From positions 1-18,620 of the forward strand of contig JALTZH010000071.1 in the NCBI GenBank assembly GCA_027051265.1: a stretch of 18,620 bases of DNA. Direction: 5' to 3'. The DNA is from an archaeon (GTDB taxonomy: Archaea; Hydrothermarchaeota; Hydrothermarchaeia; JALTZZ01; JALUTC01). The position numbers and the translations under genes were made by a program. Positions 1-18,620 of the stretch are shown one piece after another. The notes beneath the pieces were generated by a model that had not been told where the DNA came from, ran no database searches, and saw only the letters and a list, made by a program, of their open reading frames with translations. Within the stretch, counting starts at the first letter, position 1. Each line of letters begins with the position of its first letter.

Positions 1-20
1 CGAAAACCCCTTTTTTGAAA

Positions 21-31
21 TTTTAAAAATT
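21..31 (+). promoter_or_regulatory. TATA-like box upstream of the GC-rich island
   Basis: The AT-only run TTTTAAAAATT lies in a very AT-rich leader. Archaeal transcription normally starts about 22-27 nt downstream of the TATA centre, which puts the start near position 48-53. That is exactly where the GC-rich, hairpin-forming island begins. The position is seen; promoter function is inferred. AT-rich runs are common in this genome, so confidence is modest. Confidence 0.35.
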
Positions 32-42
32 TCATTATATTA

Positions 43-234
43 TTGTGGAGAAAAATCTCCCGCTCCAATGACGGTATCGTAACCATCAGGAGCGGGAGAT
101 TATTCCTCATATCTCGTAAGGCCACTCATGTGGTAGCGGTCAATGTAGCTCCCAATGAGCCACTGATAAACATGAGGTGGCTGAGGAAGAAGCTCGTGCA
201 CGTATCCAAAATCCTTAAAATCCCTAAAATTTAG
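43..234 (+). CDS. Doubtful small ORF (63 aa) overlapping the structured island
   Basis: An open frame starts at TTG 43, directly after an in-frame stop at 16-18, and ends with TAG at 232-234. It would encode a basic 63-residue peptide ending in a Lys/Leu/Ile-rich tail. There is no SD motif before the TTG. The codons (GCC, GTC, ACC, CTG, AGG, CGC) differ from the AGA/ATA-rich, A/T-ending usage of every confident gene here. I do not recognise a family. The frame may be open by chance across a GC-rich RNA gene, or it may be a remnant of a transferred gene such as the tail of a transposon protein. I consider the RNA reading more likely and list this as the competing interpretation. Confidence 0.15.
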   Translation: MWRKISRSNDGIVTIRSGRLFLISRKATHVVAVNVAPNEPLINMRWLRKKLVHVSKILKIPKI

Positions 235-243
235 TGCACGGGC
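47..243 (+). ncRNA. Candidate structured RNA with three consecutive hairpins
   Basis: This island is about 47% GC over 61-240, against 17-30% in the next 180 bases and about 33% in coding DNA nearby. It forms three long helices in succession. Helix 1 is a perfect 13-bp pairing of 54-66 with 89-101, and inner TGA/TCA and GGT/ACC pairs extend it. Helix 2 pairs 121-131 with 170-181, 11 bp with one bulged G. Helix 3 pairs 192-201 with 234-243, 10 bp with one G-T pair. A TATA-like box sits about 25 bp upstream and T-tracts follow at 329-345. GC-rich islands in AT-rich thermophile genomes are typically RNA genes. I find no tRNA, 5S, SRP RNA or RNase P RNA signature, so the class is unknown. The alternatives are the end of a degenerate IS element, or a small protein gene (ORF 43-234). 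Confidence 0.45.
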
Positions 244-271
244 AACCACTTATCAATCCATATAAGAATAG

Positions 272-17991: not shown

Positions 17992-18620
17992 TTAAAATTT
18001 TGTTTTTATAAATTTCTCCAAATCTTTAAACCAATTATATTCATGAATCTTTGCAACGAAATTATTAGATTCAAGATATACTTTAAACTTTGTTTTTGAT
18101 TTATATGCATAATATAAAGATAAGAAAATTATAAAACATACTTCTAAGTACAACAAATATCCAAGAATATCACCATAATGGAATTCTTCTGAAATACTCT
18201 TAGGTAATACTCCTGAATTTTCTTTTAGAAAATAAGAATTAACATTTCTTCTTTTAGGATCAACATATGATTCTATTATACTTTTCCATATTTCATATGC
18301 ACCCTTATCCGAGGTTAATAATGCAATATCCTTTATTTTTTCCTTAGTTAAAAGATACAAACAAATAGATGAATCCAATGTTTTTCCTTTTGGAACGCGT
18401 ATTATTCTAAAAAACTTCTCCCTAAGTAATGAATCCAAAATTATCCAGTATAATTTATATATTACTGGATCCTTCTTATCTTTTCGCTTAGATTTCTCAC
18501 ACATACCTGAAAATATCTCATCCAAAGCTATTGTAGGGATACATATTTTCAAATCTGTATAATATCTGCTTAAAAACAATAATTGATGGCATATATTTTT
18601 TTTTCTAACTATATTTGTAT
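17992..18620 (-). CDS. PIN-domain protein with a putative transmembrane segment (5' end outside the window)
   Basis: The frame is open to the right edge of the window, so the gene is cut there; counting from a TTG at 18579 gives only 195 residues. The 13 codons upstream of that TTG read TNIVRKKNICHQL. The preceding split codon ends in AT, compatible with GAT, so the start of a PIN domain (Asp-Thr-Asn) is likely at the edge. Numbered from the TTG, the other PIN acidic residues are E21 (LDEIF), D69 (TLDSSICLYLL) and D91 (LLTSDKGA). PIN domains are metal-dependent RNases. Unusually, residues about 137-158 form a hydrophobic stretch (ILGYLLYLEVCFIIFLSLYY), suggesting membrane anchoring, followed by a basic tail of about 37 residues. 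No antitoxin gene is adjacent downstream; the upstream side is not visible. Its target is unknown. Confidence 0.7.
   Translation of the reverse strand, partial: TNIVRKKNICHQLLFLSRYYTDLKICIPTIALDEIFSGMCEKSKRKDKKDPVIYKLYWIILDSLLREKFFRIIRVPKGKTLDSSICLYLLTKEKIKDIALLTSDKGAYEIWKSIIESYVDPKRRNVNSYFLKENSGVLPKSISEEFHYGDILGYLLYLEVCFIIFLSLYYAYKSKTKFKVYLESNNFVAKIHEYNWFKDLEKFIKTKF

Follow-up and report, generated by a model that had tools for sequence, protein, structure and literature searches.

The locus raises the question of what kind of sequence forms the GC-rich, hairpin-bearing stretch that stands before the S10 operon at the start of an archaeal DNA of 18,620 nucleotides (the whole stretch analysed, called the window in the following). 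A sequence-only reading had described an island at 47-243 with three stems and had proposed an RNA gene or a regulatory leader. A GC-rich island in AT-rich surroundings was indeed found, with a GC content of 46-49% over 51-250 compared to 19-32% just downstream, and all three stems are present, one of 13 bp (54-66/89-101), one of 11 bp with one bulge (121-131/170-181) and one of 10 bp (192-201/234-243). Folding was compared with shuffled controls, as had been suggested, and the island lay well beyond them: the plus strand of 47-243 folds with −75.6 kcal/mol and the shuffled sequences with −48.3 ± 4.1 kcal/mol (z −6.6, 0 of 200). The minus strand is equally stable (z −6.7); since palindromes fold alike on both strands, stability alone cannot tell the RNA strand. 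That the island fits no recognisable RNA class agrees with the searches: all Rfam families stayed below their gathering scores, matches up to an E-value of 10 were unrelated and at chance level, the RAGATH-18 covariance model gave no match and no tRNA was found in the island.

A dispersed repeat before the S10 operon

When window bases 1-300 were searched against the genome that contains them (G000, with contigs C49, C99, C139 etc.), the sequence turned up in about a dozen places. The closest copies are located on C139 and C119 (97% identity each), C99 (94%) and C49 (91%, locus L004); further copies on C22, C178, C155, C52, C90, C191 and C104 are more divergent or partial. The neighbours of the copies are unrelated genes. 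Matches in genome G167 were short and AT-rich and were judged to be chance. The sequence is thus a mobile repeat and not the stand-alone RNA gene that had been proposed. The suggested S10 regulatory leader did not hold either: the element is located 146 nt upstream of the L3 gene and on the same strand, but its other copies stand beside unrelated genes, and the 330 nt before L3 in a genome of the same order lack it, as do the 115 nt that could be read in a genome of the same genus. A leader of the S10 operon, or an sRNA gene at this place, is therefore exceedingly improbable, and the position before the operon is an insertion accident.

The contig of the window as well as C139 and C119 each end within the repeat, indicating that the assembly broke there and that the window copy is without its outer left end. 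The C139 copy gives the absent part, about 43 nt more, starting AGACTATT, and the left end is complete, with the same start, in L003, L006, L009, L011 and L012. Window positions 1-53 (plus strand) hold what remains of the transposon's left end, its inner portion, an AT-rich region of direct repeats. It contains a TATA-like stretch, GAAATTTTAAAAATTT (17-32, plus strand), about 25-30 nt before the first hairpin, which may serve as a promoter. The right terminus, CAACCAC (243-249, plus strand), is conserved in nearly all copies, and the sequence directly after it differs from copy to copy. The complete window-type element is about 292 nt long and has no terminal inverted repeats, its ends reading RGACTATT and CAACCAC. 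Compared with the sequence-only reading, the limits shift: the start lies before window base 1, as the contig is broken off within the repeat, and the end is at 249. The T-tracts noted after the island cannot be taken as established terminators. At the contig end, the minus strand of the window contains a 208-aa open frame (17992-18618) with no Pfam match.

The parent IS607 element and its shortened copies

The copy on C49 is the right end of a two-gene element encoding a serine recombinase and a 435-aa TnpB. The recombinase was recognised by the IS607 transposase model NF033518 with 130.5 bits (cut-off 110) and the TnpB has a Cas12f1-like_TNB zinc-ribbon domain (47.5 bits, cut-off 26.3). The left end of the repeat is homologous to the stretch just upstream of tnpA in this element. 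Over 3.8 kb, C49 is 99.97% identical to WAOB01000021, which comes, like the contig of L055 (JALTZZ010000153), from the S141 metagenome series; the host is therefore an uncultured archaeon. L063 (WFXA01000050.1) is a contig assigned to a Flavobacteriaceae MAG of this series, yet it carries the archaeal element, probably through a binning error.

A tblastn search with residues 371-435 of the C49 TnpB matched window 37-231 (71% identity, E 7e-22), and the last 59 residues of the protein correspond to the reading frame of 43-234 (plus strand). This frame is open over 63 codons and could be taken for a small protein gene. It is, however, the truncated tail of TnpB, and of its 21 nucleotide changes to the parent tail 17 are nonsynonymous and 4 synonymous, so the window copy is not kept as a protein; in the sister copies on C99 and C139 the frame is interrupted by stops. 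A search of frame 43-234 alone against Pfam and NCBIfam gave no match. A protein gene is therefore most improbable, and the frame is a relic. The sequence-only reading had seen an argument against an RNA in a transposon match of this frame combined with synonymous-biased substitutions; the match was found, the bias was not, and since IS607 elements carry a guide RNA at that end, the match to the TnpB tail explains the RNA and does not abolish it.

The C49 element interrupts an open frame (..AEWWGQ / HGDMTRNY..). Leaving out the insert restores the frame with no target duplication, as read from the sequence of this one inferred empty site. The dinucleotide shared at this single junction could be AC, CA or AA, AC fitting best at both ends, and not GG, which is the crossover dinucleotide reported for IS607 and ISC1926 (PMC6188088). 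With a parent that encodes an IS607-type recombinase and TnpB, no target duplication at this site and no terminal inverted repeats, window 1-249 is almost certainly a non-autonomous miniature IS607 element. Subterminal palindromes, no target duplication and no protein gene are also features of the palindromic elements of IS200/IS605 type (PATEs) of Haloquadratum (PMC3119063), but the parent serine recombinase passes the IS607 cut-off and the window's genome has no Y1 transposase, which makes a PATE highly improbable. As a miniature IS607 element, the window copy resembles these PATEs and the Sulfolobus MITEs SMN1 and SM3A (PMC3718332) in being a dispersed, transposase-less fusion of IS ends that would be moved in trans; however, the parents of those PATEs are IS605-type elements and the MITEs are bounded by terminal inverted repeats, whereas the window parent is an IS607 element and the end that was kept is the presumed guide-RNA scaffold.

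Measured from RGAC.. to ..CAACCAC, the elements have lengths of about 2045 nt (C49), 1615 nt (L095), 937 nt (L055), 598 nt (L097) and 326 nt (L088), and the miniatures in G000, G132 and G464 have 206-292 nt. Judged from these sequences, the miniatures look like repeated internal deletions that kept both ends. An internal deletion in an archaeal IS607 element encoding TnpA and TnpB would have fused the left end to the whole right end, and because the ends are shared, TnpA from full copies would move the miniature in trans.

A conserved RNA in the right end

The right end (54-249) is a conserved RNA comprising hairpin I, hairpin II, a two-part stem III, hairpin IV and a pseudoknot. From eight right ends aligned with MAFFT and unfitted to any model, RNAalifold predicted hairpin II (120-141, pairing 120-126/135-141), stem III (149-189, with a lower helix 149-153/185-189 and an upper helix 158-163/177-182) and hairpin IV (192-243, pairing 192-201/234-243), the last being the third stem of the sequence-only reading; all are on the plus strand. 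Seven pairs in this alignment show two-sided changes, for example from C-G to G-C. The full structure pairs in 89.7% of cells; sliding one side by 1-3 columns lowers this to 33-43%. A covariance model then found further copies in G132 and subsequently in G464, G553, G555 and G556, and the RNA thus recurs in other archaeal families. With 26 sequences, paired cells made up 86.5% (33-50% after sliding), and two-sided changes were seen at 18 of the 28 pairs; this and the other larger alignments are fitted to the model, and the unfitted alignment of eight sequences carries more weight.

Hairpin I (54-101, plus strand, pairing 54-66/89-101 and containing an inner stem) lies before the modelled part. 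In its own alignment (A8) 94.1% of cells are paired, compared to 40-53% when slid, and six pairs changed on both sides. Covariation was found at up to five of the seven pairs of hairpin II, C-G to G-C included, and the upper helix of stem III is shifted in register in L004 and L055. Hairpin IV is present in nearly every full copy, with four to five pairs changed on both sides, and its loop contains short repeats of the AAAATCC type, which resemble IS607 transposase-binding motifs. The suspicion of a structured RNA was therefore right: the first and the third of the noted stems, plus helices that had been missed, show compensatory changes in relatives. The middle stem (121-131/170-181) is not conserved; with 63.6% paired cells and 492 of 500 shuffles equal or better, it was rejected.

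A scan of all unpaired columns for conserved helices gave as best candidate GTGGT at 130-134, in the apical loop of hairpin II, with ACCAC at 245-249, which is part of the right terminus and forms the last bases before the variable flank. The pairing is kept in 97.7% of cells (26 sequences); its two sides hardly vary, so this is conservation and complementarity, not covariation. A pseudoknot of this type has been described for IS607 and IS605 reRNAs; the pairing of the apical loop with the five guide-flanking bases was annotated there on the model of ISDra2 and probed with mutants of ISXfa1; in IS607 the fixed flanking base is part of the scaffold (PMC10711439).

In the C49 element and in those of G553 (L087) and G556 (L095), the RNA is located at or over the 3' end of tnpB. 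This position at the right end, the compensated stem-loops, the complementarity in the pseudoknot and the variable flank together argue with high confidence for an IS607-type reRNA (omegaRNA) scaffold. Bases 250-269 (plus strand), the variable flank right after the right end, are the predicted guide, following what is known of such RNAs (PMC10278001, PMC10711439). The reRNAs of ISXfa1 (PMC10711439) and ISFba1 (RAGATH-18; PMC11061315) are alike in their place at the IS607 right end, a length of about 150-200 nt, several stem-loops, an apical-loop pseudoknot with the five bases before the guide and fixed flanking bases that belong to the scaffold. Unlike them, the window-type RNA is archaeal and is found also in protein-less miniatures, and while the RAGATH-18 reRNA lies outside its tnpB, the window-type RNA overlaps the coding tail of TnpB and has no Rfam match. 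The omegaRNA of SisTnpB1 from Sulfolobus islandicus (PMC10640517) is likewise an archaeal right-end RNA with hairpins near the 3' end and a variable guide, but SisTnpB1 belongs to IS200/IS605 and has a D-E-D triad, whereas the window parent is an IS607 element with the third aspartate replaced.

The covariance model (R1) did not match the IS607 elements of C17 and C39. By eye, the right ends of these elements, L048 (C17) and L049 (C39), contain a hairpin, CCCGATGA, a stem and a terminal hairpin in the same order; going by sequence, this is perhaps the same RNA architecture, beyond the reach of the model. Two further copies, L007:1501-1592 (C191) and L008:135-219 (C104), are chimeric: they have the same left end and hairpin I, the latter with two compensatory changes, and the right end of the C17-like IS607 type. 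L002 is mixed within hairpin I and, together with the chimeric copies, suggests exchange between element types.

TnpB partners and a possible function in trans

The TnpBs of insertion sequences are known to cut target DNA. The full-length TnpBs of L087 and L095 are 59% and 56% identical to the C49 TnpB, and the three proteins read NIH, NAQ or NSH at the site that is DRD, HRD or NAD in four other TnpBs from these genomes. In all members of this small clade, H or Q stands in for the third RuvC aspartate; the aspartate of RuvC-I and the glutamate of RuvC-II are kept according to alignments with PDB structures. The frames of this archaeal IS607 TnpB clade (L004:372-1676, L087:239-1618 and L095:302-1621) are intact at 56-59% identity between different archaea. 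An AlphaFold2 model of the C49 TnpB (mean pLDDT 51, pTM 0.36, three rows) supports no claim. SisTnpB1 was strongly impaired when any of its three catalytic residues was mutated (PMC10640517), and Cas12m2, which has an altered triad, binds DNA without cutting it (PMC10442227). By analogy, a loss of cutting in the C49-type TnpBs, which would then bind rather than cut, is plausible. Cas12m2 and TldR, relatives of TnpB that do not cut (PMC10442227, PMC13418256), share the altered RuvC residues and possibly DNA binding only; unlike them, the C49-type TnpB is still inside its transposon, and its binding is predicted.

From these parts the following working can be proposed. The TATA-like stretch of the left end would give a transcript starting about at hairpin I, and the transcript, running through the right end into the flank, would contain the scaffold followed by a guide from base 250 onwards, taken from host DNA. 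A TnpB acting in trans would load this RNA and be directed to DNA matching the flank, i.e. the empty insertion site, where it would cut or, as the clade is without the third RuvC aspartate, possibly only bind. The whole account of an IS607 miniature that arose by internal deletion, kept its guide-RNA scaffold and draws its guide from the host flank can be held with good confidence; that a TnpB uses the RNA of miniature copies in trans in living cells is, going by their sequence, possible but doubtful.

A plain miniature transposon, whose right end is kept for TnpA and whose RNA is under selection in full-length elements only, would have the same identity and differ solely in that the miniature copies do not work as RNA. 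Both ends are needed for movement in any case, and several copies are decayed (L010, L012, L096). The window copy has drifted: hairpin II contains an A-C mismatch and, with the pseudoknot uncounted, the minimum free energy favours an alternative fold by 7.4 kcal/mol; this copy may therefore be degenerating and make a poor scaffold. On the other hand, about 190 nt with hairpins I-III and the pseudoknot loop were kept, far more than terminal motifs, and copies of different lineages still fold to the consensus, L006 with 24 of 25 and copies of G132 with 26 of 27 pairs. Inert miniatures are thus a serious reading that falls just short of being probable. G132, a GC-rich and distantly related archaeon, has at least eight copies of the right-end RNA (L072, L075, L058, L077, L079, L081, L083 and L086) with up to 157 bits. 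It has no close relative of the C49 TnpB, but intact IS607 TnpA genes and another TnpB. Miniatures without a close TnpB, together with H or Q in RuvC-III, weigh against a function in trans.

If the RNAs of miniatures do function in trans, a single TnpB may serve numerous guide RNAs dispersed over the genome. A stronger version, in which the miniatures are dispersed guide-RNA genes programmed by their insertion sites and sharing one non-cutting, DNA-binding TnpB, is unlikely on the sequences at hand. If it were true, transposition itself would create binding sites, and the site made by the window copy would stand directly before the S10 operon.

Most known right-end RNAs of TnpB come from full-length elements, mainly of bacteria. 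New here is an archaeal family of right-end RNAs with no Rfam entry, which is found beside a TnpB clade with an altered site and alone in miniatures; IS607 miniatures carrying a guide RNA were not described in the literature searched, which consisted mostly of papers outside subscription. A mini-transposon explains a GC-rich hairpin island that could pass for the leader of a ribosomal operon. Further, these elements offer a natural setting to ask whether the guide RNAs of protein-less transposons serve in trans, and such use would be a simple route from a transposon to CRISPR-like guide collections.
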